DNA from: a virus
Strand: one strand, 5' to 3'
Virus record (IMG/VR): IMGVR_UViG_3300028800_000061
Location: 95,824-159,823 of that record
Length of the DNA stretch: 64,000 bases
In this document: piece by piece, positions 5,072-58,050 of the stretch
How the letters are laid out: every line of letters begins with the position of its first letter
Numbering within the stretch: the first letter of the stretch is position 1
Program-made: the position numbers and the translations under genes
Notes under the pieces: model-generated
What the model saw: the letters and a program-made list of their open reading frames with translations, nothing else
Told to the model about the DNA's origin: nothing
Database searches by the model: none

Positions 5072-5125
5072 AGTCCTTTCAGGCAGGTAGCTGAATACAG
5101 CAGATGGTTTGTTGAAGGCAGCCGG

Positions 5126-39377: not shown

Positions 39378-39552
39378 GGGCCGGTGGGCCTATGAGGATA
39401 TCCGTGAGGAAATGGGTGGCAGCCTGACGCTCGATGACCTTGAGCCGGAGATGGTTGAGAAGGCGCGCGCGTGGGCGAAGCGGTCGCATCAGAAGTGGCC
39501 GCCGAGGCCGTCCCGGCGCGAGTGGCAAGTTCGGATCATCAAACTCCGGTAA
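39358..39552 (+). CDS. Small basic protein, 64 aa
   Basis: The ATG at 39358 follows GAGGTGGCGG and overlaps the previous gene by 20 nt. The product (MARQPGEGRWAYEDIREEMG, then MVEKARAWAKRSHQKWPPRP) has a short HTH-like acidic-basic layout. Unknown. Confidence 0.5.
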   Translation: MARQPGEGRWAYEDIREEMGGSLTLDDLEPEMVEKARAWAKRSHQKWPPRPSRREWQVRIIKLR

Positions 39553-39674
39553 CCGGATCACTGGTGCCGGTGGTGGTGCCGCCCGATGCGCGGAAAAGAG
39601 GGCGGGTCAATGCTGCGACAACGTCGATCCCGGATACCGCGACAAGGGCCCTGGCGGGCTTAGTGGGACGTTAA
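39471..39674 (+). CDS. Uncertain small frame, 67 aa
   Basis: A GTG-started frame (MGEAVASEVAAEAVPARVAS) overlaps most of the previous gene's end and runs on to 39674. Codon use in the non-overlapping part is plausible, but no ribosome site or motif supports it. Confidence 0.3.
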   Translation: MGEAVASEVAAEAVPARVASSDHQTPVTGSLVPVVVPPDARKRGRVNAATTSIPDTATRALAGLVGR

Positions 39675-39695
39675 CCGCACCAGCCACCGTTCGCA

Positions 39696-39730
39696 GCCCC
39701 GTAGCGCGCTGTGCGCAGCGCCTACGGGGC
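39696..39730 (+). terminator. Terminator hairpin
   Basis: Stem GCCCCGTAG / CTACGGGGC with inner GCGC pairs. It ends the early run and opens a GC-rich island. Confidence 0.6.
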
Positions 39731-39865
39731 TGCGGTGTTGCTGCGCATGGTTGCTGCGCTGCGCTTTGGTCGCCCCGCAGGTGCGCGTACAGCGCTGCCT
39801 AGCGTGCTGCGGCAGTGTGCTGGCCAGCGCGTGCAGCATGCCAGACGGGGGATGCCAGATCATAA
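39731..39865. repeat. GCAGCGC-rich island 1
   Basis: The spacer before the helicase promoter is packed with TGCTGCG, GCGCTGC, GCGCGTACAGCGC and similar words, unlike the neighbouring coding DNA. Two related islands lie at 44390-44510 and 49353-49638. Confidence 0.5.
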
Positions 39866-39876
39866 CGCGAAACGTG

Positions 39877-39925
39877 TAGACACTGTCCGCACGCATGGGT
39901 TAGGTTGTCTATATTGAGTAGATAA
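39877..39925 (+). promoter_or_regulatory. Promoter with diverged operator (helicase)
   Basis: TAGACA (39877-39882), 18-nt spacer, TAGGTT (39901-39906), operator TTGTCT-N9-AGATAA (39905-39925), imperfect on the right arm. Confidence 0.7.
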
Positions 39926-39942
39926 TCTAAGGAGGTGTTCAC

Positions 39943-41469: not shown

Positions 41470-41557
41470 CCGCCGGGCCAGGGCCGCGGGCGGCGCCGAG
41501 CTTCCGCCCGCTGGCCCTGGTTCCACGGCAACAGCACATCAACGAAAGGGAACTGTT

Positions 41558-41917
41558 ATGCCACCCAGCACAAGCACCCTGTGGAATGCCACCAGGTACG
41601 TGCTCAACCACGCACGCGACCTGCTCACCGATGACAGCGCGGCTATCTACCACGAGGCGATCAGCGTTGACATGCTCGACGATCTCGCCGGGCTCGCCTG
41701 CAAAGTGTGGCTGACGGACGAGCCGCGGCAGTGGGCACAAGTTCAGGCGATGGTCCGCCGCTACCTGACCCAGGCGTGCGGTTACGAGCCGCTCGACGCG
41801 CTCGACCCTCTGATTGAGCGGGCCGCCGGGGATTTCGATCGCGCGGACCGGCAGTTGCAGGCCCAGCTGCTCAAGTACGCCCTGCTGCGGTGCCGGAACG
41901 CCGAGCGATCCGCGTGA
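41558..41917 (+). CDS. Helical hypothetical protein, 119 aa
   Basis: The ATG at 41558 has GAAAGGGAA upstream. The product (MPPSTSTLWNATRYVLNHAR) is mostly helical (SVDMLDDLAGLACKVWLTDE, RADRQLQAQLLKYALLRCRN). It follows the helicase and is probably in the same transcript. Unknown. Confidence 0.6.
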   Translation: MPPSTSTLWNATRYVLNHARDLLTDDSAAIYHEAISVDMLDDLAGLACKVWLTDEPRQWAQVQAMVRRYLTQACGYEPLDALDPLIERAAGDFDRADRQLQAQLLKYALLRCRNAERSA

Positions 41918-42189
41918 CCAGGATCGAGTTCGGGGAGCCGGAGCAGACCACCATCCGCGATCTGACCATAGGTGACTTCGTGGTGGTGATCCCCACCCAG
42001 GAACGGTTGCGCGGGGTGCGGGTCAACAGCGCGGTCCAAACCATCACCGGGCGTGCCCGCGGCTGGCGGCTCGGCCAGGGCGCCAGCAGGCGGGTTGTGC
42101 CATCGCGGGTGCTCACATTCGTGAGCGCCGGCGAGGTGGACCGGCCTTCGCATTTCACGGTCACAGTGCGCAGGCCGATAGCACCGTAA
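41914..42189 (+). CDS. Hypothetical protein, 91 aa
   Basis: GTG 41914 overlaps the previous stop (GTGA). The product (VTRIEFGEPEQTTIRDLTIG) has a beta-barrel pattern (DFVVVIPTQERLRGVRVNSA, FTVTVRRPI). Unknown. Confidence 0.6.
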   Translation: MTRIEFGEPEQTTIRDLTIGDFVVVIPTQERLRGVRVNSAVQTITGRARGWRLGQGASRRVVPSRVLTFVSAGEVDRPSHFTVTVRRPIAP

Positions 42190-42204
42190 TCGCACCCAAA
42201 CGTA

Positions 42205-42253
42205 TTGCCGTTGGCGTATTGCGGCTGCTAGTTTGTCCATGTTACATTGACAA
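42205..42253 (+). promoter_or_regulatory. Promoter with operator dyad
   Basis: TTGCCG (-35, 42205-42210), TAGTTT (-10, 42229-42234), operator TTGTCC-N9-TGACAA (42233-42253). Confidence 0.7.
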
Positions 42254-42272
42254 TATTAAGGGGTTGATGGCA

Positions 42273-42638
42273 ATGCCTGACACAGCGACCGTCCCAGGCG
42301 ATGGAACGCTCGCCCTGTACACGTGGCTCCTGGAGCACGACCGCGAAAGCAGCCATGCCGAGGCAGCCCGCATCCGCGACGAGGAGATCGGGCAGGCGCG
42401 TGATCTCGAAACCGGAGCGCTGCAGCGGGCGTTCGACGACTACATGGCTGACATCCGGGCCGCCCGCAAGGACGCCGACCGGCGCCGCGCCGGCGCCAAC
42501 CGCGCCTACGTCGCCTCGGCTGAGGCGCTCAACCTCTGGTACGACGTGCGGTTCACCGGCACACCGGAGGAAGTCCGGGCTGCGTTCGCCGCTTTCGTCC
42601 GCGCGCACCGCAACACCGGAGAGGACCTGGCGGCATGA
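42273..42638 (+). CDS. Helical hypothetical protein, 121 aa
   Basis: The ATG at 42273 lies 9 nt after AAGGGG; ATG 42267 is possible but close to it. The product (MPDTATVPGDGTLALYTWLL) is helical and charged (SHAEAARIRDEEIGQARDLE, DDYMADIRAARKDADRRRAG), perhaps a coiled coil. Unknown. Confidence 0.6.
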   Translation: MPDTATVPGDGTLALYTWLLEHDRESSHAEAARIRDEEIGQARDLETGALQRAFDDYMADIRAARKDADRRRAGANRAYVASAEALNLWYDVRFTGTPEEVRAAFAAFVRAHRNTGEDLAA

Positions 42639-42952
42639 CCGATTTCGCGCTCAAAGTCCTCGACAGCGACGGCGGCGAGATGACCGGCTCCGCGGCCGTG
42701 GAAGCGCTTAGGGCTGGCCGGGCAGTGCGGATTGTCCCGGTGTACGCAGCCCGCCCGAGCCGGGCAGTGGACGGGGTGGATGTTGAGGTCCTGCCGTGGC
42801 GGCGGCGGCCGGGTAACCAGTTCGACCCGCCCGGGCTCGCCTGGGCGGGCAACCGCCGGCCGACAGATGACGAAGTGGAGATGTTCCTCCAGGCGGTTCG
42901 CGCTGGGGCGCTACTCATCCGCCTGGCCATCGAGAAAGGACACGGATCATGA
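42635..42952 (+). CDS. Hypothetical protein, 105 aa
   Basis: Coupled by ATGA. The product (MTDFALKVLDSDGGEMTGSA) has a beta/alpha layout and WAGNRRPTDDEVEMFLQAVR. Unknown. Confidence 0.6.
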   Translation: MTDFALKVLDSDGGEMTGSAAVEALRAGRAVRIVPVYAARPSRAVDGVDVEVLPWRRRPGNQFDPPGLAWAGNRRPTDDEVEMFLQAVRAGALLIRLAIEKGHGS

Positions 42953-43233
42953 ACGCCGTAGCCGCCCGGGACCGGGTGTACGTGCCGATCGGTGAGCCGG
43001 TGCGGGTGATCCTGCCGGCATCCGAGGTGTGCATGCACATGCGGGTGACCGGCAAGGTCATGCAGGTGGCGCTGGTCAAGGACCGGCCGGGTGCGCCAGC
43101 GTACACGGTGAGCGCGCAGATCCTCCGTGAGGACGGCGGCAGGTTCGGTGCGCCGGTCCTGCCGGGTGAGGCCGGGTTCTACCAGGACGGGAGCATCTGG
43201 TACTGCTACCCGGCTGTGGGAGCCCGGCCATGA
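42949..43233 (+). CDS. Hypothetical protein, 94 aa
   Basis: Coupled by ATGA. The beta-rich product (DRVYVPIGEPVRVILPASEV, GKVMQVALVKDRPGAPAYTV) resembles small barrel proteins. Unknown. Confidence 0.6.
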   Translation: MNAVAARDRVYVPIGEPVRVILPASEVCMHMRVTGKVMQVALVKDRPGAPAYTVSAQILREDGGRFGAPVLPGEAGFYQDGSIWYCYPAVGARP

Positions 43234-43349
43234 GCCTCATTCACAGTGCGCAGTTCTGGTGGGGCTGCCTGTCCGGCGGCGGCGGGGTGGCCGCCGTCGT
43301 GATCTTCACCAAGCTGGCCAGGGATCTGCGGGGCAGGCGGTACGGGTGA
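43230..43349 (+). CDS. Membrane peptide, 39 aa
   Basis: Coupled on both sides (ATGA start; GTGA into the next gene). The product (MSLIHSAQFWWGCLSGGGGV then AAVVIFTKLARDLRGRRYG) has one membrane helix and a basic tail. Unknown. Confidence 0.6.
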   Translation: MSLIHSAQFWWGCLSGGGGVAAVVIFTKLARDLRGRRYG

Positions 43350-43585
43350 GCGCCGCCACCGGTCAGCGGGCTGCAGCGCAGCGGACCTGGCGGAAGCACT
43401 CTGCATCTCTCACCAGGGCGATTAACAGCGGCGACCCGGACCGGATCGTCACCGCGTGCCGGGCAGCGATCCGGGCTTGGGATCAGCCTGGTTGCGGGTG
43501 GCCGGATAACTGGTCGAAGTGGCAGCGGGCTCTCGACGACTCAAGGCCGTGGAACAAGCAGATCGCCCTGGAGGATCTGCGCTGA
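43346..43585 (+). CDS. Hypothetical protein, 79 aa
   Basis: GTG 43346 overlaps the previous stop. The product (VSAATGQRAAAQRTWRKHSA) is helical with several Trp (IRAWDQPGCGWPDNWSKWQR). Last of a five-gene coupled chain. Unknown. Confidence 0.6.
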   Translation: MSAATGQRAAAQRTWRKHSASLTRAINSGDPDRIVTACRAAIRAWDQPGCGWPDNWSKWQRALDDSRPWNKQIALEDLR

Positions 43586-43670
43586 GCATTGACCGGGTCA
43601 CTCGCCGGATGTGCGGCCGGTAATGGCGAGTGGTCCCGGTGAAAGCTCAACCCGAACAGGAGGAGACACC

Positions 43671-44255
43671 ATGTTGCACCAGATCAAACTGATCCAGCTC
43701 AGTGCGGGGCACCGGATCGGTGGCACGCTCACGGATGCGCAGTCGCGGGAGTTGTTCCGGGTGCGCGGCCGCGGCGTGCACAACCCGGAGTTCTGGCACC
43801 GGATCATCCGGATGGGCAGCGACCTGCAGCTGATGGCGCAGCCCGGCGTGATCAGCAACGGCCGGATGGCCAGCGATCAGCAATTCGTCGCCGCGCCGGT
43901 GCACATCGGCTCGTACATGCTGGTCGACGGCACCGGGTACAAAATCACGGCCCGGACGCTTGCCGATCCTGAGCTTGTACCGGTCGATGGACTGGTCGTC
44001 GAGGCGCTGCTCATCGACGGCACGTGGTCAGTTCACAACGCCGGGTGCGCGGACGTGGCCCGCAAGGCCCCGTTCTCGGCGCACGGGCAGAGCCTGATCA
44101 CCGCCGGGCCCGATCAGCAGAGTGTCGGTGAGTGGCTGAACTCCGACTTCATCGCCGAGGGCGCCATCACTCCGGCGCACGCGCTAGATGATGTGTCGTT
44201 CGCGCCGTGCCTGGCCGGGCTGCCGATGAACGCGGGCCGGGCCGGCAATGGATGA
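43671..44255 (+). CDS. Hypothetical protein, 194 aa
   Basis: The ATG at 43671 has AGGAGGAGACACC upstream. The product (MLHQIKLIQLSAGHRIGGTL) has a mixed alpha/beta layout (DLQLMAQPGVISNGRMASDQ, VEALLIDGTWSVHNAGCADV). No family recognised. Confidence 0.6.
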   Translation: MLHQIKLIQLSAGHRIGGTLTDAQSRELFRVRGRGVHNPEFWHRIIRMGSDLQLMAQPGVISNGRMASDQQFVAAPVHIGSYMLVDGTGYKITARTLADPELVPVDGLVVEALLIDGTWSVHNAGCADVARKAPFSAHGQSLITAGPDQQSVGEWLNSDFIAEGAITPAHALDDVSFAPCLAGLPMNAGRAGNG

Positions 44256-44511
44256 CGAACTGGAAGTGCTGGCGGACCGGGCCGAGCTGGTGCTCGAGTC
44301 GGGCGGCCGTTGGTCACCGCGGCGGCTGGCCGCGGTGTGCGGGGCCCATCCAGCGGATGTTCAAGCTGCGTTGCTGCATGCTGCCGGAACTGGCAGCCAC
44401 AGCGCGCTGCAAACCACGCCGCAGGGTTTGCGGTGTGCGCACGTAACACTGCGCGCTGCGCACCGCAACGGTGGAGGCGCGCAGCGTAGCGCCGAGCGTG
44501 CCGCCCTATGA
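44248..44511 (+). CDS. HTH-like small protein, 87 aa
   Basis: The product (MDDELEVLADRAELVLESGG) has a winged-helix-like start (RWSPRRLAAVCGAHPADVQA). Its last 35 codons lie in GC-rich island 2, whose repeat words shape the tail (HRNGGGAQRSAERAAL). The overlap start is TTG/ATG-coupled with the previous gene. Possible DNA-binding role. Confidence 0.5.
   Translation: MDDELEVLADRAELVLESGGRWSPRRLAAVCGAHPADVQAALLHAAGTGSHSALQTTPQGLRCAHVTLRAAHRNGGGAQRSAERAAL
44390..44510. repeat. GCAGCGC-rich island 2
   Basis: Contains GTGCGCACGTAACA (shared with island 3 as GTGCGCACGTAGCA), CGCGCTGC, GCGCAGCG. It overlaps the 3' part of the HTH-like gene. Confidence 0.45.
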
Positions 44512-44864
44512 CCGGGGAGATCGGGGTTGTTTACCTGATCTGCTTCCGCCGGCGGTACAAGCACGCCGGGCATTACATCGGGTGGACCAACAGCCTTCTG
44601 CGGCGTCTCCGGACACACGCGCGAGGTAACCCGTGCGGTAAGGCGGCCCGGTTGATGGTTGTCATTCATGAGGCCGGGATCGAATGGGATCTTGTGTGCG
44701 CGTGGGAGGGCACACGTGATGATGAGCGACGGCTGAAGAACCGGCATGGGGCGAACAAGTTCTGCCCGCGGTGCAACACCAATCCGCAGCGGGTCAGCCT
44801 ACCCCGCGTAGATGAGAGGGAGATTGAGCGTGCGCAGACAGCGCTTGCCAAAGCAGCAGCCTGA
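44508..44864 (+). CDS. GIY-YIG family nuclease-like protein
   Basis: The 118-aa product has a compact GIY-YIG domain: VVYLICFRRRYKHAGHYIGW, then NSLLRRLRTHARG with the usual Arg, and an EWDLVCAWEG strand with a candidate Glu. The tail has CPRCNTNP. GIY-YIG domains make single-strand cuts in DNA; free-standing phage copies are homing enzymes or repair-type nucleases. Confidence 0.75.
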   Translation: MTGEIGVVYLICFRRRYKHAGHYIGWTNSLLRRLRTHARGNPCGKAARLMVVIHEAGIEWDLVCAWEGTRDDERRLKNRHGANKFCPRCNTNPQRVSLPRVDEREIERAQTALAKAAA

Positions 44865-45129
44865 CATCATCCGGCGACTGTCGGAGGCCTATCACGTCCC
44901 GGAGACAGTGGCCGCCTATGAGCCGTGGTCGAACGGGTGGGCGATCGGTTTCAAAGTCACTCACCCCGATGGGCGGGTGGAGTTCGTTTACCTGAACCCG
45001 TCCACCCTTGAGGATCCAGAGCACGAGACTCCGAACGTGTTCCTGTACCACGGCACGACTGGCGATCCGTCTGATGACGGGACTGTCTGCTACGTCGACC
45101 TGTTCAGGGGGGATGGCCGGGATGGCTGA
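44830..45129 (+). CDS. Hypothetical protein, 99 aa
   Basis: GTG 44830 lies inside the end of the previous gene (35-nt overlap). The product (VRRQRLPKQQPDIIRRLSEA) continues with WAIGFKVTHPDGRVEFVYLN. Unknown. Confidence 0.5.
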   Translation: MRRQRLPKQQPDIIRRLSEAYHVPETVAAYEPWSNGWAIGFKVTHPDGRVEFVYLNPSTLEDPEHETPNVFLYHGTTGDPSDDGTVCYVDLFRGDGRDG

Positions 45130-45415
45130 GGTTCTGAGTGCAACCCAGGCGAACGCGATCCGGTACGCGGCGGAGGCTACCGGAGCTGATCCAGCTGAGG
45201 TTCTGATCAGTTACTCCGGCCGCGGCATGTTCGGTGAACAGTGCCTTGGGCTCAAAGTCAGCTTCTTCTTGCAAACGTGCGTTTTCTTCAACACCCTGGC
45301 GGATGCCGATAAAGCACTGTCCTCAGCTCTGTACGACGATCACCGATCAGAATCACTGGGGATGGGGACCATTGTGTACTTCCCCCGGTACCAGTTGCCC
45401 GATCTGGAGGGCTGA
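45122..45415 (+). CDS. Hypothetical protein, 97 aa
   Basis: The ATG at 45122 has AGGGGGGAT upstream. The product (MAEVLSATQANAIRYAAEAT) resembles small alpha/beta orphans (KVSFFLQTCVFFNTLADADK). Unknown. Confidence 0.6.
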   Translation: MAEVLSATQANAIRYAAEATGADPAEVLISYSGRGMFGEQCLGLKVSFFLQTCVFFNTLADADKALSSALYDDHRSESLGMGTIVYFPRYQLPDLEG

Positions 45416-45418
45416 ACG

Positions 45419-45607
45419 GTGGATAGCCCGATCATCAATGCGGACGAGATCCCCGACGATCTCGCACCGGGCACGTACTGCTGCCGTGTCGACGACAGCA
45501 CGACCTGGGCTGGGTTCCGGTACCGGTTTGTCGTCCCGCCTCGTGTCCATGTCCCAGGTGACTGCCTAGTACAGATCGTCAAGGCTGCCCCAGGTACGGA
45601 GGGCTGA
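45419..45607 (+). CDS. Small hypothetical protein, 62 aa
   Basis: GTG-started product (MDSPIINADEIPDDLAPGTY) with a CCRVDDSTTWAGFRYRFVVP strand region. Unknown. Confidence 0.55.
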   Translation: MDSPIINADEIPDDLAPGTYCCRVDDSTTWAGFRYRFVVPPRVHVPGDCLVQIVKAAPGTEG

Positions 45608-45610
45608 CCC

Positions 45611-45856
45611 GTGCCGTTCACGGTGATCGGCTTGCCCGGTGGGATGGTGCGCGTGGAGAACGCGGCCACCGGGCGTGTTGCCGCGAAGTGCACGACCCCG
45701 GCTCGGGCGCGGGCGCAGCTCCGCGTGCTGCACGCTGTTGATCAGCGGGCCGGGCACGGGTTGTGCTCGTGCCCGTGCTTGTGCTGGCAAGGCGGCGATG
45801 GTGACGGCGGATGGTGCCTGGATTGCCGGGGTGGGCGGCACAGTGGATCCAGGTAA
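45611..45856 (+). CDS. Small Cys-rich protein, 81 aa
   Basis: GTG-started product (MPFTVIGLPGGMVRVENAAT) with CSCPCLCW and CLDCRGGR clusters, a likely zinc site. Unknown. Confidence 0.55.
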   Translation: MPFTVIGLPGGMVRVENAATGRVAAKCTTPARARAQLRVLHAVDQRAGHGLCSCPCLCWQGGDGDGGWCLDCRGGRHSGSR

Positions 45857-45932
45857 CACGCCTGAGCCGGCTCTGCGTAAATGGGAGATGGCCTGGTGAT
45901 CGCGGGCCGGGCGCGCACGGTGGCGACGTCGG

Positions 45933-47012
45933 ATGCTCGGGTGTGCGCGGGCGGATCCGGGCTGGTACTACCTGGCCAGGTGCGCGCTGCCTGAGGATGG
46001 CGGCCCGGGCGGGTGGTATCTGCGCGATGCGGAAGATGCCGGCCGCCTGGATTTCATGGGTGCGCTGAAACCGGTGGCGTTCCGTGCGGCGAACATGGAG
46101 ATATACCACCGTCAGGATGAGGTGGACGGCCGGGCGGCTTACTTCTCGATCGCGATGGAGATGGTGACTGGTTTCAGCGACCGGGATGCCATTGATGCCG
46201 CGCCGTGGTGGCATGCCGCTGATGTGATGCCGCGGCGGTTTCTCATGGGCCCGGTTCGTGATGCGCGGCGGTGGGCGGTGTCGCAGCAGATGCAGTGGCC
46301 GCCGGAGTGCGTGACTGGCGGGATTATGCGGGCCGAATGTTATTGGAAACGTGTTGACACTGTTCCGCCGCGGCTGCTAGTTTGTCCATGTAATAAGGAC
46401 CGGCTGTGCGGCCGGGCCATCGACACGAAGGAGACACCAGTGGAAACCACCACCGCGCCGGACCCCGCCGGCACCGAGACCACGCAGACCGGGAGCGAGG
46501 CGAGCGAGGCGAGCGAGGCGCAGCCGGCCCGCGTGTTCAACAACGGGCTCACCCCCGGGCACGACAAGACCGGCGCACCCTTGCAGGCCGGTTACGTGGG
46601 CCACTGCCAGGCGTGCGGGTTCCCGTTCTCCAAGCAGCAGAAGCGGCCGATCTGCCAATCCACGGTGGCCTGCAAGAAGCGGCTGGGCGACGGCACCTAC
46701 ACCGGCGGCGCTTCCTCCCCGGAGAGCACCCCGCCCGCGCCGGCGGGTGAGAGCCCGCAGCCGGAGAGCACCCCACCGGGCGGTGCCAGTGCCATCCCCG
46801 GGCCCGCCCCGGTGCCCGGTCCCAGGCCGGCGGGACGGAACCGGCGTGAGCCGGTGCCCACCCCGCGGCCCCCGGCCGGACGCAAGGGCAGCAGGCTCGC
46901 CCGGGCGGCGGAACTCGCCGAGCGGGACCACGCCGCTATCACCACCGGCGAGGACGCCGAGGCCGCGCAGTTGCGGCAGGAAGCCGAGCAGGCGCAGGCC
47001 GACGCCGCCTGA
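45933..47012 (+). CDS. Long frame that reads through a promoter into the next gene, 359 aa
   Basis: The frame starts MLGCARADPGWYYLARCALP and codes a plausible protein to about 46320 (MEIYHRQDEVDGRAAYFSIA, PWWHAADVMPRRFLMGP). It then passes without a stop through the promoter-operator at 46354-46402 and into the gene starting at 46440. Two products are possible: a 359-aa fusion from the upstream transcript and a 190-aa form from the internal promoter. Alternatively, the first gene has lost its stop. Confidence 0.45.
   Translation: MLGCARADPGWYYLARCALPEDGGPGGWYLRDAEDAGRLDFMGALKPVAFRAANMEIYHRQDEVDGRAAYFSIAMEMVTGFSDRDAIDAAPWWHAADVMPRRFLMGPVRDARRWAVSQQMQWPPECVTGGIMRAECYWKRVDTVPPRLLVCPCNKDRLCGRAIDTKETPVETTTAPDPAGTETTQTGSEASEASEAQPARVFNNGLTPGHDKTGAPLQAGYVGHCQACGFPFSKQQKRPICQSTVACKKRLGDGTYTGGASSPESTPPAPAGESPQPESTPPGGASAIPGPAPVPGPRPAGRNRREPVPTPRPPAGRKGSRLARAAELAERDHAAITTGEDAEAAQLRQEAEQAQADAA
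46354..46402 (+). promoter_or_regulatory. Promoter with diverged operator
   Basis: TTGACA (46354-46359), 18-nt spacer, TAGTTT (46378-46383), operator TTGTCC-N9-GGACCG (46382-46402). Confidence 0.7.
46440..47012 (+). CDS. Zinc-site protein with disordered tail, paralogue of the 25.1-kb gene
   Basis: GTG 46440 has GAAGGAGACACC upstream. The 190-aa product has a Thr/Glu/Ala-rich start and the module HCQACGFPFSKQQKRPICQS..ACKKR. That module matches the Cys module of the gene at 25120-25734. A long Pro/Ala/Gly/Arg-rich tail follows (PRPAGRNRREPVPTPRPPAG), then an acidic helix. The conserved module with variable tails suggests a nucleic-acid or protein-binding role. Confidence 0.65.
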   Translation: METTTAPDPAGTETTQTGSEASEASEAQPARVFNNGLTPGHDKTGAPLQAGYVGHCQACGFPFSKQQKRPICQSTVACKKRLGDGTYTGGASSPESTPPAPAGESPQPESTPPGGASAIPGPAPVPGPRPAGRNRREPVPTPRPPAGRKGSRLARAAELAERDHAAITTGEDAEAAQLRQEAEQAQADAA

Positions 47013-47032
47013 CCGGCCGGGAGGCCCAGACA

Positions 47033-47068
47033 GGGTGCACATGCCGCCCCGCCGTGGCATGTGCACCC
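47033..47068 (+). terminator. Terminator hairpin
   Basis: A perfect 13-bp stem (GGGTGCACATGCC / GGCATGTGCACCC) follows the stop at 47012. Confidence 0.75.
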
Positions 47069-47133
47069 ATCCGGGTAACAGCCCGGCCGGGACATGTGCG
47101 ACACCCGGATCCTCATCAAGGAGGCACCAGATC

Positions 47134-47877
47134 ATGACCGTCACCACTGACAACCCGCTGCTCGGCAGGGTCCGCAAGCTGCTGGCCAAAGCGGAAGCCG
47201 TGGGCGTCACGCCACCGGAAGCGCAAGCGCTGACCGCGAAAGCCGCTGAGCTGATGGCCAAGTACGGAATCGACCGGGCGCTGCTCGCCGCCGACCGGCC
47301 GGACACCGACCGGCCCGCCGACCGGATCATCGACGTCGACAACCCGTGGGCGCGGATCCAAGCTCACCTGCTGTGCGGTCTCGCCGCGGCGATGCGCTGC
47401 CAGTGCGTTGTCCTGCCCACCAGCACGCCGGGCTCCCGGATTCACATGTTCGGCTTCGCTTCCGACATCGAGCGGGCTGACATCCTGTACACCTCAGTGC
47501 TGGTGCAGATGTGGATGGCCCTGGCCGTGGCGGAAGTGCCCGAGTGGTCGCGCAGCCCGCGGGCGTGGCGGCGCAGCTTCCTGCTCGGATTCGCCACTGC
47601 CGTGGTTTCCCGTGTGCGAGCTGCCGAGAAGGAAGCCGCTGACGAGGCCACTGCGCCCGCGGCCGCCACCAGCTCGAAGGCGACGATCGTGCTGGCCGAC
47701 CGGCGGCAGGTCATCCGCCGCAACATTGAGCAGGCCTATCCGCTGACGCGCAAGACCCGCCTGACCTACAGCGGCAACGGCTACGGCGCCGGCTACACGG
47801 AGGGGCAGAAGGCGGACATCGGCGGCGGCGCGGCGCCGGTCCGCGGCGGCCGGGCCGGGCAGGGGGCGATCGGCTGA
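47134..47877 (+). CDS. DUF2786-domain protein
   Basis: The 247-aa product (ATG 47134, AAGGAGG site) starts LLGRVRKLLAKAEAVGVTPP EAQALTAKAAELMAKYGID in two adjoining segments, the DUF2786 signature. It continues with PWARIQAHLLCGLAAAMRCQ, a zinc-less peptidase-like or binding domain, and ends in a Gly-rich tail. DUF2786 proteins are common in actinophages; the biochemical role is not established. Confidence 0.8.
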   Translation: MTVTTDNPLLGRVRKLLAKAEAVGVTPPEAQALTAKAAELMAKYGIDRALLAADRPDTDRPADRIIDVDNPWARIQAHLLCGLAAAMRCQCVVLPTSTPGSRIHMFGFASDIERADILYTSVLVQMWMALAVAEVPEWSRSPRAWRRSFLLGFATAVVSRVRAAEKEAADEATAPAAATSSKATIVLADRRQVIRRNIEQAYPLTRKTRLTYSGNGYGAGYTEGQKADIGGGAAPVRGGRAGQGAIG

Positions 47878-47961
47878 ACCATGCGGCACGGGTGACCCTC
47901 GCCGGGCGGGCCGGCATCGGACTTCGAGGTCCGGGAGGGTGCGGAAGGAAAGGAGTTCGCT

Positions 47962-48318
47962 ATGAGCGCTAGCAAAGGCATAGTCGCAAAGATCTACCGG
48001 AGCCACGAGGTCCCGGCCGGGGTGACCCCTGATTTCATACATCTCGTGCTGGTGGTCGGCACTACCGACGAAGCTGGCAAGGTTGTCGAGCCGGTTGAGC
48101 CTGAGCACCAGGTGCAGGCGCCGCACGGGGTGCCTGCACCTGAGGTAGTCGTCGTCCGCCACTTCGACCACGGTCGGCCCGCATACTACGCCCGGCCGCG
48201 CGGAGTGCCTGGTGTGTGGGTTTGGGGTGGCACGTTCATCTACACCAGCGCCACCGGTTTCGCGAACCTGACCGGGATCGCGGGTGCCGTCCCGTTCCAC
48301 GACCAAGTCGAGCGGTAA
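47962..48318 (+). CDS. Hypothetical protein, 118 aa
   Basis: The ATG has GGAAAGGAGTT upstream. The product (MSASKGIVAKIYRSHEVPAG) is beta-rich (FIHLVLVVGTTDEAGKVVEP, PGVWVWGGTFIYTSATGFAN). Unknown. Confidence 0.6.
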   Translation: MSASKGIVAKIYRSHEVPAGVTPDFIHLVLVVGTTDEAGKVVEPVEPEHQVQAPHGVPAPEVVVVRHFDHGRPAYYARPRGVPGVWVWGGTFIYTSATGFANLTGIAGAVPFHDQVER

Positions 48319-48333
48319 AGGAAAGCTGACATC

Positions 48334-48681
48334 ATGCGACCAAGAACTAATCGTCCTGGCCCTGGGCGTACTGTCTCTGAGTCGGACAGCGACTGGCGTC
48401 ACGACTGGGAGACCACGCAGAATCTCGGAGCCGAGTTCATGCCTGCCATTCCCGGGGAAACCGGGCGGCGGCACGCCCACTATCCGGATGTGGATCCGGC
48501 GGCGGTTCGCATCGCTGGCGTTCTCGTGTCCGTGTACATCAAGGATGGGGCACTGTGCCTCTCCGCTGACCTGGAAGCAGCCGACCCGGGCCTCTACCCT
48601 GAGGGAGCGGTCCCGGTGAAGTTGTTCGTCCAGGCTGCGCGGTTGTATGCGATCGACGGCACCGGGAAGGAACTGACATGA
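48334..48681 (+). CDS. Hypothetical protein, 115 aa
   Basis: The product (MRPRTNRPGPGRTVSESDSD) has a basic N-terminus and a C-terminal alpha/beta part (VRIAGVLVSVYIKDGALCLS). Unknown. Confidence 0.55.
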   Translation: MRPRTNRPGPGRTVSESDSDWRHDWETTQNLGAEFMPAIPGETGRRHAHYPDVDPAAVRIAGVLVSVYIKDGALCLSADLEAADPGLYPEGAVPVKLFVQAARLYAIDGTGKELT

Positions 48682-48899
48682 TCGACAGTCACACGTTTGT
48701 GGATGCGCTCGCCCAGGTGATAGCCGACGCGGATATGCGTGTCTGGCCGGCCGCGGGCGAGGAGGAGACGGTGACTGGCGTGATCCCGTACGGCGGGACC
48801 GGGGTGCTTGTCACCATGTCCGGCGGGCAGGTAGTTCACCTGCTGGTCGAGTCGATTCTCGCCGCGGCTGCCACCGGGCCTGCCTCGAAGGGAGGTTAG
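48678..48899 (+). CDS. Small hypothetical protein, 73 aa
   Basis: Coupled by ATGA. The product (MIDSHTFVDALAQVIADADM) ends QVVHLLVESILAAAATG. Unknown. Confidence 0.55.
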   Translation: MIDSHTFVDALAQVIADADMRVWPAAGEEETVTGVIPYGGTGVLVTMSGGQVVHLLVESILAAAATGPASKGG

Positions 48900-48902
48900 A
48901 CG

Positions 48903-49352
48903 ATGGCAGAGAGGAAACCGCTGCCTGCTCCTCGGCTCGTGGAGGGGCAGATCGGTGGTGTGCACGAGATCGTCGAGGCGTTTGGTGGTGCGCTGAGCAA
49001 GCAGCGGATCAGTATCCTCATGTCGCACCCGGACGCGCCGGAGGCTATTAGCGATACAGCGGGCGGCGGCTCGCAGTGGTTCCTTGACGACGCCGCCAGG
49101 CATGTCGCGAAGGTGCGGGAGTTGCCGTTGCCGTCTGGTCCGTTGCCGCATGTGCTGGCCAGCGCGAGCGACATTGTGGCCGTTTTCGGGGGTGCGATCA
49201 GCCGCGGGCAGGTGGGCCGCGCGATGCTGGTTGAGGGTGCTCCACGGGCGGTGGGTGAGACCGAGGGCGGCGGCCGCAAATGGCTGCTCGATGCGGCTGT
49301 CGAGCACATCCAGACGGTACGGGCGCCAGGTCGCCCGCGTAACGAGAAGTGA
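48903..49352 (+). CDS. Tandem-repeat HTH-like protein, 149 aa
   Basis: The product consists of two copies of a unit of about 68 residues: VHEIVEAFGGALSKQRISIL..APEAISDTAGGGSQWFLDDA and ASDIVAVFGGAISRGQVGRA..APRAVGETEGGGRKWLLDAA. The unit looks like a small helix-turn-helix with a C-terminal wing. An internal duplication of a DNA-binding domain would suit binding of a two-part site. It is a candidate regulator in this region. Confidence 0.6.
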   Translation: MAERKPLPAPRLVEGQIGGVHEIVEAFGGALSKQRISILMSHPDAPEAISDTAGGGSQWFLDDAARHVAKVRELPLPSGPLPHVLASASDIVAVFGGAISRGQVGRAMLVEGAPRAVGETEGGGRKWLLDAAVEHIQTVRAPGRPRNEK

Positions 49353-49638
49353 CCGGGAGTGCGCAGCGCTACGTTGCGCGCCGCAGGGCTAGTTCTGGCA
49401 GTGCATGCTGCATAGCGCAGTAGCAGCGACTGGCCCGGAGGCGTGCAACGTAGCGCTTTATGCTGCCCAAGCGGCAGCGCTGGCCAGCGCTGTAAGCCAC
49501 ACCGCAACGCGTCGGGTGCGCACGTAGCATGGTTACCAGCGCGCGTGCCCCAATGCCTGTAGGCGCGCGTACAGCGCGCCGCAGGGCGCATGCGGCAGCA
49601 ACGTTGCGCAGCAACGCGGATGGCCAGCCGGGGGGCAT
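49353..49638. repeat. GCAGCGC-rich island 3, gene-free
   Basis: About 285 bases without a credible gene, dense in GCGCAGCG, GCAACGT, TGCTGC, GCGCGTACAGCGC (shared with island 1) and GTGCGCACGTAGCA (shared with island 2). Several short hairpins are possible (GCAACGTTGC; GCAGCGCTGGCCAGCGCTG). Confidence 0.55.
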
Positions 49639-49836
49639 GTGGCCGACACTGAGATCCGGCCCGGCCAGGTTGTGTGGTGCTGGGGTGATGACACCTGCGA
49701 TCACACTTACCGAGGCCTGGTGATCGAGGCCGAACCGCCGCGGTGGTACCGGGTGCGATTCACGTTCGGGACGGTGTGGGTGCCGGGCGGGTGGCTACTG
49801 GTGGATGCCAGCCAGCTCGTACGCCTGCCGGACTGA
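49639..49836 (+). CDS. Small beta-rich protein, 65 aa
   Basis: The GTG-started product (MADTEIRPGQVVWCWGDDTC) continues WYRVRFTFGTVWVPGGWLLV, an SH3-like pattern. Its end overlaps the convergent gene by 42 nt. Unknown. Confidence 0.5.
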   Translation: MADTEIRPGQVVWCWGDDTCDHTYRGLVIEAEPPRWYRVRFTFGTVWVPGGWLLVDASQLVRLPD

Positions 49837-50175
49837 TACCCCCAGCGAGCGGACCACCTCAGCTTGATCACGCAATGTCCGCAGGTGGTCTTGCGCGGAC
49901 TCGCGGATCACTGTCGCCCGGTCGTAGGCGAACTCCAGGTCGGAGACTTGCTCGTCAACCCACGCGTCCCGCTCGGCGGTAGTCGTGCCGCCGCGGGCTA
50001 CCTTTGGGGCCTGGCCGGCGAGGAGTGCGCGGCGGCGGGCCCGCTTGTACTCGTGCTTCGCGTTGACCTCAAGGTCGCGGGCTTGGGCGAGTGCGACGCG
50101 GGCCCGGCCGAGCTCGTTGACCAGGGTGCGCAGCTTGGACTCAATCTCGACGGGGGTGAGCGCGTCACCGTTCAT
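49795..50175 (-). CDS. Coiled-coil protein, 126 aa
   Basis: The product (MNGDALTPVEIESKLRTLVN) is helical with a basic stretch (HEYKRARRRALLAG). It is the last gene of the leftward PAPS-reductase/ParB block, 3 nt behind the ParB-like gene. It may be an accessory factor of that system. Confidence 0.6.
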   Translation of the reverse strand: MNGDALTPVEIESKLRTLVNELGRARVALAQARDLEVNAKHEYKRARRRALLAGQAPKVARGGTTTAERDAWVDEQVSDLEFAYDRATVIRESAQDHLRTLRDQAEVVRSLGVSVRQAYELAGIHQ

Positions 50176-50178
50176 GAT

Positions 50179-50688
50179 TTACGTCGTCCAGCCCTCGGAG
50201 AACCCGTCGCCGGCGCCGCGTTTCGTCATCTGGCCCCGGTCGGCCAGGCGGGATACTTCTTCCTGGTCCATTTCCAGGCGGGCGCCGATCTCATGCGGGT
50301 CCATGCCAAGATCGAGCAGGTCCGCGATGATGTCGGCCATCGCGAGGACGTAGTGGGTGCCGCGGGCCCGGTTGTGGCGGATGGTGGCCATGCGCGCGAC
50401 ATCGGGCGGGCACTCGGCGAGGGTGACGATCGGGACCAGGCCGCCGGTGAGTGCAGCGATCTGCTTGTCCTCGGCGACAAGCCAACGGTGGTAGCCGTCA
50501 ACAATTTCTAGGCGCTCACCGCCGTCGTGCTCACGGACAACGATCGGCTGTGTCCACCCGTTCTCGAGGATGGAGATTTTCAGCAGCCGTTTCTCCGGCG
50601 GGGCTTGCCGGTTGGGATTCCAGTCGTTGCTGCTCAGGGCATCGCGGGGCACCCATCGCACAGCGGAGATGGGTTGCGTTTCGATCAA
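50179..50688 (-). CDS. ParB-like protein (IbrB-like), PAPS-reductase partner
   Basis: The 169-aa product starts at TTG 50688, which overlaps the previous stop (TTGA) and has GAAGGAA upstream. It has a ParB/sulfiredoxin N-domain: SAVRWVPRDALSSNDWNPNR, LLKISILENGWTQPIVVREH, and IVDGYHRWLVAED (the DGYHR box). An HTH-like helical end follows (DPHEIGARLEMDQEEVSRLA). A PAPS-reductase-like gene directly followed by a ParB-like gene is the arrangement of IbrA/IbrB pairs. Confidence 0.8.
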   Translation of the reverse strand: MIETQPISAVRWVPRDALSSNDWNPNRQAPPEKRLLKISILENGWTQPIVVREHDGGERLEIVDGYHRWLVAEDKQIAALTGGLVPIVTLAECPPDVARMATIRHNRARGTHYVLAMADIIADLLDLGMDPHEIGARLEMDQEEVSRLADRGQMTKRGAGDGFSEGWTT

Positions 50689-52001
50689 GGGAGTTCCTTC
50701 GCATACGGCGGGATCAGCGCGTACGGGTCCGGTGGTGGCGGTGTGGGGGCGGCCAACTCGACGTAGGTGCCGTCGGCGATGATCTGGGTGAGTTCGGCGG
50801 CGTACTTGTGCCAGATGTGCGGGGCTGGGATGCCTTTGCCGATGACTGGGACGCGGGCGGCTGCGGTCGCGGAGCGGCGGTCTTTGAAATCGCCGCGCAT
50901 CGCGATCGACAGCAGGTAATCCCACGACACCCCCGATTCGGGGTGGGGGGTGCGGATCACCATCGGGTCACTGGTTTTGCGGTAGTGACGGCCTAGTGCG
51001 TCGCGGACCCTTTTGATGACGATCGGCCGGTCAGCCGGGCCGAATTTCTGGATGTACCTGGTCAGGAAATCGGGCCACAGCATGCCCTCTGGTTTCTGGG
51101 GGCGTTTGTGGTAGCCGTACAGTTCGGTGAGCGCGTACCTGACTGCGGATCCTGCACCGGGTACCCGTTCGGCCATCTTGCCCCAGACATCGGGGAAGCA
51201 GGAGGCGAAGGTGTGCAGTTTCTGCAGTGGTTCCTCACCGAACGCGGGTGAGCACCGCTGGCTGCTGTGCGGGATGCCGGCCATTTCGAACCGGTCGTAG
51301 GCCCGGTTGTAATCCCAGCCCTTGATGGCAGGTGCGGTCCACACGTCTTCTGTGGTCCAGTCGTACACCGGGTACGCTTTCCAGATGTTTCCGGCGGACT
51401 CACCCTCGGTGTATTTGATCATGTAGTTTTCGGATGCGTGCCGCAGCAGCGCCCATGTGCGGGTCCGCGATTCCTGGGCGCGGATGCCCATAAGGGTTGC
51501 GCAGTTGCCCTGGCCGGCAGTGAACATGAGCCCATCCGATTGCGGGATCGTCAACCTGGCTGCTGCCGGTTCGGCGGGAAACCCGGCCAGGACCGTGATC
51601 GCTTCCGGTGGCAGGGGCCGGCACCATTTGTCGCGGGACTCCGGCGCCCACGGCCACCAGTACGGGAACTCCCGCGAGCACGCGTTGCGGTGCTTCACCG
51701 GCAGGCAGTACCACTCCAAGGCGATGTCGTCGCGCTGGCCCATCCGGCGGACGTACTCTTCGGTTTCGAGCGGGATCGCTTCCTCGTCGAAGAAGCAGGC
51801 GCGCAACGGCAGGTGCCGTTCAAAACGGGGATCGGAGTGCGCGACCTCTAGGGCGATGTTGAGTACCGCGGTGGAATCCTTGCCGCCGGAGAACGCGACC
51901 CTGATGTTGTCGAACCGTTCCATGATGGTGGCGGTCCGCTCCAGGGCGAGGGTGTAAACGTCCTGTTCTGCTGGCCTTCGGGACAGCAGGTGGTAGGACA
52001 A
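50685..52001 (-). CDS. PAPS-reductase-like PP-loop protein 1 (IbrA/DUF3440-like)
   Basis: The 438-aa product (TTG start) has the PP-loop SGGKDS (38-43) used to bind ATP or a related nucleotide. It also has the PAPS-reductase family layout, with a Cys/Trp-rich insertion (WYCLPVKHRNACSREFPYWW, DKWCRPLPPEAI). The C-terminal half (CSPAFGEEPLQKLHTFASCF) resembles DUF3440. It is about 60 percent identical by eye to PP-loop protein 2. It pairs by overlap with the ParB-like gene. Substrate unknown; DNA or RNA modification or regulation has been proposed for relatives. Confidence 0.85.
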   Translation of the reverse strand: MSYHLLSRRPAEQDVYTLALERTATIMERFDNIRVAFSGGKDSTAVLNIALEVAHSDPRFERHLPLRACFFDEEAIPLETEEYVRRMGQRDDIALEWYCLPVKHRNACSREFPYWWPWAPESRDKWCRPLPPEAITVLAGFPAEPAAARLTIPQSDGLMFTAGQGNCATLMGIRAQESRTRTWALLRHASENYMIKYTEGESAGNIWKAYPVYDWTTEDVWTAPAIKGWDYNRAYDRFEMAGIPHSSQRCSPAFGEEPLQKLHTFASCFPDVWGKMAERVPGAGSAVRYALTELYGYHKRPQKPEGMLWPDFLTRYIQKFGPADRPIVIKRVRDALGRHYRKTSDPMVIRTPHPESGVSWDYLLSIAMRGDFKDRRSATAAARVPVIGKGIPAPHIWHKYAAELTQIIADGTYVELAAPTPPPPDPYALIPPYAKELP

Positions 52002-52075
52002 CGTGGCCCCCTGCCGGGTTACAGTCGGAAGCTAAGACGCTGTTCCTGTCGCGGCTTGCAGGGCCGGGGATGGTG

Positions 52076-53404
52076 TCAGGGCCGGGCTGGCGGGCTAACG
52101 CCGGCCCGGCCTGCTGCCCAGGCGTACGGCGGTATGAGCGAGTACGGGTCTGCGGGCGGCGGAACTGGGGCGGCCAGCTCGGCGTAGGTGCCGTCGATCA
52201 TGATTTGATGCAGTTCGTCTGCGTACTTGTGCCAGTACCCGGGCAGCGGACGGCGCTGGGCGTCGTTGAGGATCCGGCCGCCGGCGTGCTTACGTGATTT
52301 GAAATCGCCGCGCATCGCGAGCATGAGCAGCCAATCCCACGACAGGCAGGTGTCCGGGTGTGGTGCGTGGACGACGATCGGGTCTGCGGTCATCTGGTAG
52401 TGGCGGGCGAGCAGCAGCTTGATCTTCCCCGCGATAGTGGCAGCGTCACCGGGGCGGAACTGGCGCAGGTAGTGGCCGATGAAATCGGGCCACGCCAGGC
52501 CGGGTGGTTTGGCCGGGCGGCCGTGGTAGGAGTAGAGCTCGGTGCGCGCGTAGCGGACTGCGGCGCCGACACCTGGTACCCGCTCGGTCATCTTGGACCA
52601 CACATCAGGGAAGCACGCCGCGTAGGTGTGGATTTTCTGCAACGGTTCCTCACCGAACGCTGGGGAGCACCGTTGGATGGAGTGGGAGACGCCAGCCATC
52701 TCCATCCGGTCATACGCCCGGTTGTAATCCCAGCCTTTCACCGCTGGTGCGGTCCACACATCCTCAGTAGTCCAGTCGTACACCGGGTACGCTTTCCACA
52801 GGTTGCCCTGGCTTGTGCCATCATCAGATTTGACCAGGTAGTTGTCAATTTTGCGGGCGGTCACCGCCCGGCGGCGGGTCAACGATTCCTGCGCCCGGAT
52901 ACCCATGAATATCGCGGTGTTGCCGCGCTCGACGGGAGCGAGCAGCCCGTTCATCTCCGCTGTGGTCAGCCGGCTCTCGACAGGCCAGATCGGGAACCCT
53001 GGCAGCTCGGTGATGGCTTCCGGTGGGAGGGGGCGGCACCATTTGTGCTTGTCCTCCGGGGCCCACGGGTACCACCAGGGGTGCGTGCGGGAGCACGCGT
53101 TGCGGTGCTTCACCGGCAGGCAGTACCACTCGCAGTTGATGTCGTCGCGGGCGGCGATCCGCCGTACGTACTCCTCGGTTTCGACCGGGATCGCTTCCTC
53201 GTCCTGGAAGACGGTACGCAACGGCAGATGCCGGGCGTACTTCGGATCGGAGTGGGCGACATCGAGGATGACGTTCAAGGTGGCGGTGGAATCTTTGCCG
53301 CCGGAGAACAGGACAAACACCCGGTCGAAGCGGGCCAGCACAGAGGCGGTACGTTCCATCGCCAGGGTGTAGACGTCCTGCCCGGCTGGCCGTTTCGGCA
53401 GCAT
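52076..53404 (-). CDS. PAPS-reductase-like PP-loop protein 2
   Basis: The 442-aa product (ATG 53404) has SGGKDS (34-39). It shares long blocks with PP-loop protein 1 (KHRNACSR, AYPVYDWTTEDVWTAPA, KGWDYNRAYDR, RCSPAFGEEPLQK), so the two arose by duplication. It differs in the loop before the DUF3440-like half and at the C-terminus. Two non-identical copies suggest a heteromer or two substrates. Confidence 0.85.
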   Translation of the reverse strand: MLPKRPAGQDVYTLAMERTASVLARFDRVFVLFSGGKDSTATLNVILDVAHSDPKYARHLPLRTVFQDEEAIPVETEEYVRRIAARDDINCEWYCLPVKHRNACSRTHPWWYPWAPEDKHKWCRPLPPEAITELPGFPIWPVESRLTTAEMNGLLAPVERGNTAIFMGIRAQESLTRRRAVTARKIDNYLVKSDDGTSQGNLWKAYPVYDWTTEDVWTAPAVKGWDYNRAYDRMEMAGVSHSIQRCSPAFGEEPLQKIHTYAACFPDVWSKMTERVPGVGAAVRYARTELYSYHGRPAKPPGLAWPDFIGHYLRQFRPGDAATIAGKIKLLLARHYQMTADPIVVHAPHPDTCLSWDWLLMLAMRGDFKSRKHAGGRILNDAQRRPLPGYWHKYADELHQIMIDGTYAELAAPVPPPADPYSLIPPYAWAAGRAGVSPPARP

Positions 53405-56960: not shown

Positions 56961-57045
56961 GTAAGAGGATTCAGTTCCTCGTTGCGTGTATGAAACGCGA
57001 CATGGGTTGGGGCCAGCGGCGTTTAAAGCGCGGGTCAGGTTCTCG

Positions 57046-57116
57046 TCAGATGCTCTGCCTATTGAGCTACCGGGGCACGGGCGCCCCGGGCCGGGCTCGA
57101 ACCGGCAACCTTCTTA
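57046..57116 (-). tRNA. Permuted tRNA-like unit B
   Basis: Read on the minus strand, the 3' half comes first: partial anticodon/variable part, T-arm GCCGG-TTCGAGC-CCGGC (57106-57090), 3' acceptor CCGGGGC (57089-57083). After G and a 5-nt spacer follows the 5' half: acceptor GCCCCGG (57076-57070), T8, A9, D-arm GCTC-AATAGGCA-GAGC (57067-57052), A26 and TCTGA (57050-57046). All seven acceptor pairs are Watson-Crick across the spacer. The anticodon stem closes with TAAGA (57116-57112) with one mismatch. U33 and the anticodon cannot be placed. Confidence 0.65.
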
Positions 57117-57153
57117 TGCTTGCCTGCGCTTGGTTGATCCAGCCCAGTTTAAG

Positions 57154-57311
57154 AGTGAGCTTCGAGCGAGAATCTGAAGTTGGGTCGCGTCCGGGTTGCC
57201 TCTACCAGTTGGGCTACACGGGCCCGTTTGTGCCCGCAGAAGGAATCGAACCTTCACTGTGACCCTGGCCGCTTGATGAGATTGAATGTCAGATCTCAGC
57301 TTGCGCTCACT
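57154..57311 (-). other. Complementary flanks around permuted tRNA unit A
   Basis: The left flank (57311-57289) and right flank (57177-57154) can form about 19 pairs: AGTGAGC/GCTCACT (7 bp), AGC, GAGA and TCTGA segments, with small bulges. The helix would bring together the two outer ends of the permuted unit, as a splicing or trimming structure would require. Confidence 0.6.
57192..57266 (-). tRNA. Permuted tRNA-like unit A
   Basis: Minus-strand order: AGGGT (57266-57262), variable part, T-arm GAAGG-TTCGATT-CCTTC (57255-57239), 3' acceptor TGCGGGC (57238-57232), A73, spacer CAAACGG. Then come 5' acceptor GCCCGTG (57223-57217), T8, A9, D-arm GCCC-AACTGGTAGA-GGC (57214-57198), A26 and ACCCG (57196-57192). 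The acceptor stem has five Watson-Crick and two G.U pairs. ACCC/GGGT closes the anticodon stem with one further mismatch. The anticodon is not readable. It lies 50 nt downstream of the gene ending at 57319 and is probably co-transcribed. Confidence 0.65.
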
Positions 57312-57318
57312 GCTTATG

Positions 57319-58050
57319 TTACCGGAACAGCCACCCGAGGAACGCGTTTCCCACTTCAATGTCGCGGACTTCCATCGAGTTCGCTTCTTCACGTGCTTGC
57401 TTCACCGCGATTTGCAGACGGTCCACCCGGTCTAGTAGTTCCGCGATACGGGCTGGTGGCAGCGCACCTGAGTAATTGATGCGCGCCCATGACCCGACAG
57501 TGACATCTTCGAAGTACACGTCAACTTGCGCCGGGTGCTTGTCGGTGGCTGCGGCCTTGACGTGGTTGCGGGGGACTTTCTTCGTCCGGTGCGTGATAGC
57601 CGGGGCGGTGCGCCACCATCCGGTCGTCTGATCCATCTCCCACTGCTGGGACTGGTCGTGCGCGGGCAGTTTCGTGATGACCGCTCGCAAATCGGAGAGC
57701 TGCTTCTCAAGGAACAGCAGGAAAGTCGGCGGGGCCTGGCGGACGAGAAGCTCACCGTCGATGATCACATCGGCGCGGGCTTCGCAGTTCGCGTAGTCCT
57801 TGGTCGCTTGCACATCGAACAGCCGGGTCAGCGACCGGATGATGTCCTTGATGACATCCTCGATTTTGAGCTGCACCCTGGTGGACTCGGGGGGCAGCTC
57901 CTCGCCTTCCTCGTCGCGGGGAAGGTATGTGCGGGTCAGCCCTGTGACCATGCCGTCTTTCTGGATCTGCTTGTACAGGCCGGTCAGGTGCGCGTAGGTC
58001 TTGTTTTTGACGCCCGTGTCGACGGCGACGATCTGGCATAGCTTGGTCAC
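57319..58050 (-). CDS. Conserved actinophage hypothetical protein (DUF7873-like)
   Basis: The 243-aa product (GTG 58050, GGGGGAA upstream) begins MTKLCQIVAVDTGVKNKTYA and continues HLTGLYKQIQKDGMVTGLTR, TYLPRDEEGEELPPESTRVQ and LTRLFDVQATKDYANCEARA. I recognise this layout from many actinobacteriophage genomes as a conserved protein of unknown function. The C-terminus is helical. It lies just upstream of the permuted tRNA units on the same strand. Confidence 0.75.
   Translation of the reverse strand: MTKLCQIVAVDTGVKNKTYAHLTGLYKQIQKDGMVTGLTRTYLPRDEEGEELPPESTRVQLKIEDVIKDIIRSLTRLFDVQATKDYANCEARADVIIDGELLVRQAPPTFLLFLEKQLSDLRAVITKLPAHDQSQQWEMDQTTGWWRTAPAITHRTKKVPRNHVKAAATDKHPAQVDVYFEDVTVGSWARINYSGALPPARIAELLDRVDRLQIAVKQAREEANSMEVRDIEVGNAFLGWLFR

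Follow-up and report, generated by a model that had tools for sequence, protein, structure and literature searches.

In a 64,000-nucleotide (nt) stretch of viral DNA, called the window below, two adjacent units resembling circularly permuted transfer RNA (tRNA) genes lie on the minus strand, just downstream of a gene for a DUF7873 (PF25283) protein. The window is the right part (contig positions 95824-159823) of the 159,823-nt virus contig IMGVR_UViG_3300028800_000061. The two units are probably small non-coding RNAs of the bacterial Y RNA (YrlA) type, making up one cassette with DUF7873, which would bind them, and carrying a tRNA-like head that would do the work. Each unit runs T-arm, 3' acceptor strand, spacer of 6-8 nt, 5' acceptor strand, D-arm, and further helices reach outward from both cores, over about 57166-57303 for unit A and about 57010-57145 for unit B; the DUF7873 gene ends 15 nt upstream, on the unit A side, with both units on its strand. 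Direct reading bears out the original prediction, made from the sequence of the stretch by itself, as to the location of the two cores, their acceptor pair counts and their junctions; the outward helices and the DUF7873 gene were absent from it. The features are these, in window positions, units A and B being units 1 and 2 of the aligned orthologues:

57319-58050, minus: DUF7873 (PF25283) gene, 243 amino acids, GTG start, Pfam E = 2e-97; candidate protein partner.
57166-57303, minus: unit A, putative Y-like RNA with permuted tRNA-like core and basal stem; partial YrlA match of 17.5 bits at 57198-57256; orthologues aligned.
57276-57302, minus: upstream arm of unit A, YTSA-like repeats with a 6-nt period (CTGA GA TCTGA CA TTCA AT CTCA), some four in succession; seen in almost every aligned unit 1.
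57232-57255, minus: unit A T-arm (T-stem 57255-57251/57243-57239, T-loop TTCGATT 57250-57244, read directly) and 3' acceptor strand TGCGGGC (57238-57232); T-stem and acceptor covary in the unit 1 alignment (A4).
57224-57231, minus: unit A spacer (acceptor loop) ACAAACGG, read directly.
57198-57223, minus: unit A 5' acceptor strand GCCCGTG (57223-57217; 5 Watson-Crick and 2 G.U pairs) and D-arm (57214-57198), read directly.
57010-57145, minus: unit B, putative Y-like RNA with permuted tRNA-like core and outer helices P0 and P1; Rfam YrlA match and 35-sequence covariation.
57139-57145, minus: unit B P0 5' strand GGGCTGG, partner 57016-57010, with two G.U pairs; P0 supported across orthologues.
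57132-57138, minus: internal-loop strand ATCAACC (consensus ATCGACC), candidate protein-binding site; ATC nearly invariant in the unit 2 alignment (A3).
57126-57131, minus: unit B P1 5' strand AAGCGC, partner 57031-57026; all 8 aligned P1 pairs doubly compensated.
57083-57106, minus: unit B T-arm (T-stem 57106-57102/57094-57090, T-loop TTCGAGC 57101-57095, read directly) and 3' acceptor strand CCGGGGC (57089-57083); covariation in unit 2.
57077-57082, minus: unit B spacer (acceptor loop) GCCCGT, read directly.
57052-57076, minus: unit B 5' acceptor strand GCCCCGG (57076-57070; 7/7 paired) and D-arm (57067-57052); covariation in unit 2.
57017-57031, minus: unit B P1 3' strand GCGCTT (57031-57026) and conserved loop TAAACG (consensus CTTAAACG); near-invariant A/A/G columns in A3.

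Almost all DUF7873 loci have these YTSA repeats ahead of unit 1, where they might serve as several contacts for protein or belong to an irregular stem.

ARAGORN found no tRNA in the window, and Rfam gave no match there at its curated cut-offs. With the threshold opened, unit B matches the YrlA family RF02553 over the full length (49.6 bits, E = 3.1e-10, 57022-57132), while unit A matches that family in the core only. Tandem linear tRNAs can mimic the pattern, those of the window phage reaching 33 bits with RF02553 at their junctions, and the RF02553 score alone was therefore not taken as proof.

The link between the units and DUF7873 was followed across phages and bacteria. A blastn search located the same arrangement in an unannotated gap of the tRNA region of Rhodococcus phage NiceHouse, where the gene just upstream again encodes DUF7873 (E = 2e-99). 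Phages of Gordonia, Arthrobacter, Rhodococcus, Vibrio, Rhizobium, Klebsiella/Serratia and cyanobacteria carry homologues of the protein; homologues were also matched in 396 IMG/VR stretches and in no fewer than 568 from GTDB genomes, the matches listed for the latter being chiefly from Streptomyces and other Actinobacteria. The 169 DUF7873 loci taken for comparison come from phages of Actinobacteria, Vibrio, Rhizobium, Klebsiella and cyanobacteria and from bacterial chromosomes. A relaxed motif search, for a T-arm/D-arm pair on the coding strand no more than 700 nt downstream of the gene and with no acceptor pairing required, found at least one permuted unit in 152 of these loci and two in 85; the covariance model R1 adds seven same-strand loci (L058, L094, L097, L098, L118, L123 and L147) at 66-129 bits. 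By the two methods together, one or, more often, two permuted units lie just downstream of DUF7873 and on its strand in at least 159 of the 169 loci (94%). R1 also matches L172, on the opposite strand, and L180, upstream. At the latter (L180:2647-2919) both permuted units stand upstream of the DUF7873 match, which may reflect a rearrangement or a second, truncated copy. Unit B of the window is among the sequences from which R1 was built, and its own R1 score is thus no independent evidence; independent support comes from the Rfam match and from NiceHouse and Racecar.

The relaxed matches number 240 in the 116 kilobases (kb) downstream of DUF7873 and 96 in 989 kb elsewhere. Six or seven of the seven acceptor positions are paired in 227 of the 240, against 2 of 40 linear tRNA-array junctions (at least six paired) and 9% when partners are swapped; the permuted units are beyond chance and are not junctions of a tRNA array. 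Their spacers are mostly 6-10 nt long. The same link holds in 32 Streptomyces genomes picked by the presence (16) or absence (16) of DUF7873: all 16 with the gene have a covariance-model match beside it (15 at 109-133 bits, one at 57.8), and all 16 without it give background only, at 56.3 bits or less. Of 101 Streptomyces species, 50 carry the gene, in single copy; among 296 genomes sampled from across the phylum, 7 carry it. Genes beside it in locus L030 recur in just 2-4 of 80 loci in a comparison of Streptomyces synteny; the neighbours not being conserved, the cassette is stand-alone and patchy, and none of them hints at a function.

Covariation was assessed in the unit 2 alignment, which holds 35 sequences, for the acceptor, T and D helices and the basal helix P1. 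The cells of these helices are paired in 93.9% of cases, against 65% in shuffles and at most 49% when the strands are slid, and 228 cells are changed on both sides, against 64 in shuffles. Compensatory change is seen in 8 of 8 P1 pairs and 7 of 7 acceptor pairs. Acceptor covariation in relatives had been named beforehand as a test of circular permutation, and the preservation of this pairing by compensatory change in many phages and bacteria shows that the permutation had been correctly recognised. The linear alternative, in which the 5' half of A pairs with the 3' half of B, had already been judged the worse fit and is rejected here: it fits at 5/7, and its NiceHouse equivalent scores 20.9 bits as an intron-bearing tRNA, under the cut-off of 29.

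Covariation extends beyond the tRNA-like part. In 89% of the 35 cases the outer helix P0 keeps five or more of its six pairs, against 27% for shuffled partners, and between P0 and P1 lies ATCGACC opposite CTTAAACG, the most conserved non-tRNA sequence of unit 2. A 5-base-pair helix at the position of the anticodon stem is perfect in 46% of units 1 and 54% of units 2, against 11-13% in the comparison. A basal stem formed from the 5' and 3' ends, with internal loops before the module, is accordingly present, and P0, P1 and the stem at the anticodon position all covary in unit 2. The basal stem of unit 1, whose downstream arm is CTCAGACTCTCGCTC, is less clear than that of unit 2, and RNAalifold did not resolve it on the unit 1 alignment. 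Loci of Streptomyces and other Actinobacteria have one more conserved stretch (approximately GTGNGCAATTGGGCGGCAA...CAGGGGCCCGGGAG) 3' of unit 2; it may be an extension of the outer stem or a third element.

The AlphaFold2 model of the DUF7873 protein is confident (predicted local distance difference test score, pLDDT, 91) and has long helices and a long beta-hairpin, with the conserved basic stretch KKVPRNHVKAEATDKHPAQV predicted at the hairpin's tip. Comparison with solved structures gave no convincing match (best in PDB, E 0.025, probability 0.57), and there was none in PADLOC or NCBIfam; a literature search found no mention of DUF7873. A relationship to the TROVE proteins was considered and rejected, neither sequence nor fold supporting it.

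YrlA is normally partnered by Rsr/Ro60, and its own module is permuted, going by the strand order in the Rfam RF02553 model. YrlA RNAs consist of a tRNA-like domain and a basal stem bound by Rsr, the Ro60 orthologue, with a head that binds PNPase (PMC8394870); among the roles proposed for them in print are the breakdown of structured RNA and, as a decoy, the inhibition of an anticodon nuclease (PMC7790460). Each unit of the new cassette likewise has a basal stem, built from the two sequences that flank it, followed by a short helix at the place of the anticodon stem and then by the tRNA-mimic module, in which the T-arm comes before the D-arm because a short loop closes the acceptor stem instead of leaving it open. 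The units would be co-transcribed with DUF7873 and processed from the transcript. DUF7873 would bind the basal stem and the conserved internal loop (ATCGACC/CTTAAACG), as Rsr/Ro60 does the basal stem of Y RNAs, and the tRNA-like head would recruit or decoy a tRNA-binding enzyme or nuclease, as proposed for heads of the YrlA type. Such a ribonucleoprotein (RNP) would redirect RNA turnover or shield tRNAs during infection. DUF7873 and two Y-like RNAs probably form a new self-contained cassette, the binding and the function being what we infer from this likeness.

No TROVE protein was found in the 159.8 kb contig or in 14 other DUF7873 phage records, and phages BRock and Sixama have YrlA-type signals with TROVE and without DUF7873; a script search also found permuted units beside the Ro-like gene of BRock. 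The two proteins are not mutually exclusive, since they occur together in 2 DUF7873 phages and in 8 of 13 bacterial genomes. In phage L140, DUF7873 is followed by its two units, and at a distance of about 1 kb another three permuted units (5088-5577) lie directly upstream of a TROVE gene, the open reading frame of which starts at about 5643; these have different basal stems, with a CACTCGCG motif.

Several observations weigh against a Y-like RNP of this kind. The RF02553 gathering score of 69 bits is reached by none of the units scored, and about 6% of the DUF7873 loci have no unit at all. One of the searches had a rule that favours paired acceptors; the search without this rule gives an agreeing result. 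Single-sequence folding energies are weak in several units (z about 0 to -2.5) and modestly better than those of shuffles, so it is on covariation that the case rests. DUF7873 has no detectable relation to Ro60/Rsr, by sequence or by fold, and its overall isoelectric point is near neutral; that it binds RNA is, therefore, only inferred.

The original prediction had gone on to call the units functional or once-functional permuted tRNAs. On this explanation the anticodon ends would be spliced, by DUF7873 or by host enzymes, to give a circle, RNase P and 3' processing would drop the spacer, and a decoding tRNA would result. The acceptor, T and D arms are indeed tRNA-perfect. The search with halves swapped that had been proposed as a check came out both ways: ARAGORN accepts 181 of 186 units rotated to linear order, for which the loop was constructed, but their identities are scattered over all amino acids rather than one per set of orthologues, so that no anticodon is conserved. 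U33 is kept in only 14 of 61 units 1 and 18 of 57 units 2. The ends meant for splicing, moreover, run on through internal loops into the covarying P1 and P0 helices, and the conserved internal loop, about 6-9 by 10-12 nt by inspection, is unlike the 3-4-3 bulge-helix-bulge of permuted tRNAs (PMC3978253). No such motif was seen in the sequences and folds inspected, no formal motif search having been run. Several spacers have UUCG loops. Among the 76 distinct unit 1 spacers, 63 have A as the discriminator base (position 73), and in 29 the acceptor is followed by an encoded NCCA (fewer, 16 of 77, in unit 2). We consider permuted tRNA genes an unlikely explanation; the units look like tRNA mimics, not tRNA genes for translation, and their anatomy is that of a YrlA-type Y RNA, the family that unit B matches. 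No phage case of a permuted tRNA had been known to the original prediction; bacterial Y RNAs have in fact been reported bioinformatically from mycobacteriophages, according to a statement in PMC12282133 citing Chen et al. 2014.

The A73 and encoded NCCA of unit 1 spacers do mean that spacer cleavage is possible. A non-Ro RNP of DUF7873 and its two RNAs might then contain a permuted tRNA mimic with a cleaved acceptor loop and a chargeable 3' end, held by its basal stem and used otherwise than for decoding; we give this variant a low probability.

The cassette might instead be a toxin or defence system neutralised by RNA, similar to a type III toxin-antitoxin, in which DUF7873 would act on RNA or tRNA and the mimic RNAs would inhibit or direct it. 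Its stand-alone and patchy occurrence, in single copy, with little shared flanking gene content and in phages and hosts alike, would suit such a system. Against it, DUF7873 has no PADLOC match and no nuclease-like fold, the cassette is present in virulent phages without an obvious partner, and the RNA repeats of known type III systems stand ahead of the toxin. This too is improbable.

That the units are remnants or junctions of a decayed linear tRNA array, the T-arm of one gene followed by the D-arm of the next, is very improbable. The window phage does have 37 linear tRNA calls outside the window, and their junctions give weak matches of up to 33 bits with RF02553 and 51 bits with R1. Junctions of linear tRNA arrays, measured as a control, seldom pair, as noted above, whereas the units are retained beside DUF7873 in chromosomes with no tRNA array there, and the covariation, which includes the outer helices, refutes this explanation. 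The 37 calls lie at contig positions of about 38,970-53,240 (L006:18970 to L007:13437), one of them on the opposite strand with an undetermined anticodon. One junction of two tRNA-Ala genes (L006:19208-19352) scores 51 bits with the unit 2 model, a false-positive yardstick for permuted-tRNA and YrlA searches. In Streptomyces phage BRock a manA-like RNA lies between two tRNA-Lys genes (L028:6260-6423; 49.7 bits, cut-off 55.2). A permuted two-piece transfer-messenger RNA (tmRNA) is hardly credible either, for although such genes are permuted in the same sense (PMC3978253), no tmRNA is detected in the window by Rfam or ARAGORN, each locus has two units with a proper, conserved D-stem, and in phage Phendrix (L020) an ordinary tmRNA exists separately. 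Permuted introns, of group I or another kind, were rejected, there being no Rfam intron match above background and just some 80 nt between the units.

If the two units are Y-like RNAs, a widespread protein family of unrecognised fold, carried by about half of the Streptomyces sampled and by phages whose hosts differ greatly, appears to own a pair of tRNA-mimic RNAs, and DUF7873 thereby gains a first testable function. What defines the known bacterial Y RNAs is their partner, Ro60/Rsr; the present cassette suggests that one module, the permuted tRNA mimic, can be reused with different partner proteins, and it offers a compact setting in which to study the mimic's role in infection. A permuted tRNA-like signal in a phage should first be tested as a Y RNA and only then be named a permuted tRNA gene.

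Compared with known systems, the units share with the permuted tRNA genes of Cyanidioschyzon, green algae and Thermofilum a 3' half encoded first, a short spacer, matching acceptor strands and, in some spacers, a CCA; they differ in having no bulge-helix-bulge in what was inspected, no conserved U33 or anticodon, and termini that lie inside covarying stems. With two-piece tmRNA they share a permuted tRNA-like domain, but no tag region is seen, the D-stem is present and Rfam gives no match. The closest likeness is to YrlA (RF02553), in the module order of T-arm, acceptor hairpin and D-arm, in the basal stem from the 5' and 3' ends, in the internal loops, in the similar length and in the occurrence in phages. 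Unlike YrlA, the units score under the Rfam gathering cut-off, adjoin DUF7873 rather than Rsr (TROVE, PF05731), and have a different conserved basal internal loop (ATCGACC/CTTAAACG); unlike at the Rsr locus of L140, the two RNAs lie downstream, not upstream, of the protein gene. As two of the YrlA features tested thus fail, namely the curated score and the Rsr neighbour, the units are classed as a variant and not as YrlA proper, and the Y RNA analogy is one of putative mode of working -- a protein on the basal stem, a tRNA-like head beyond it -- rather than of membership in YrlA.
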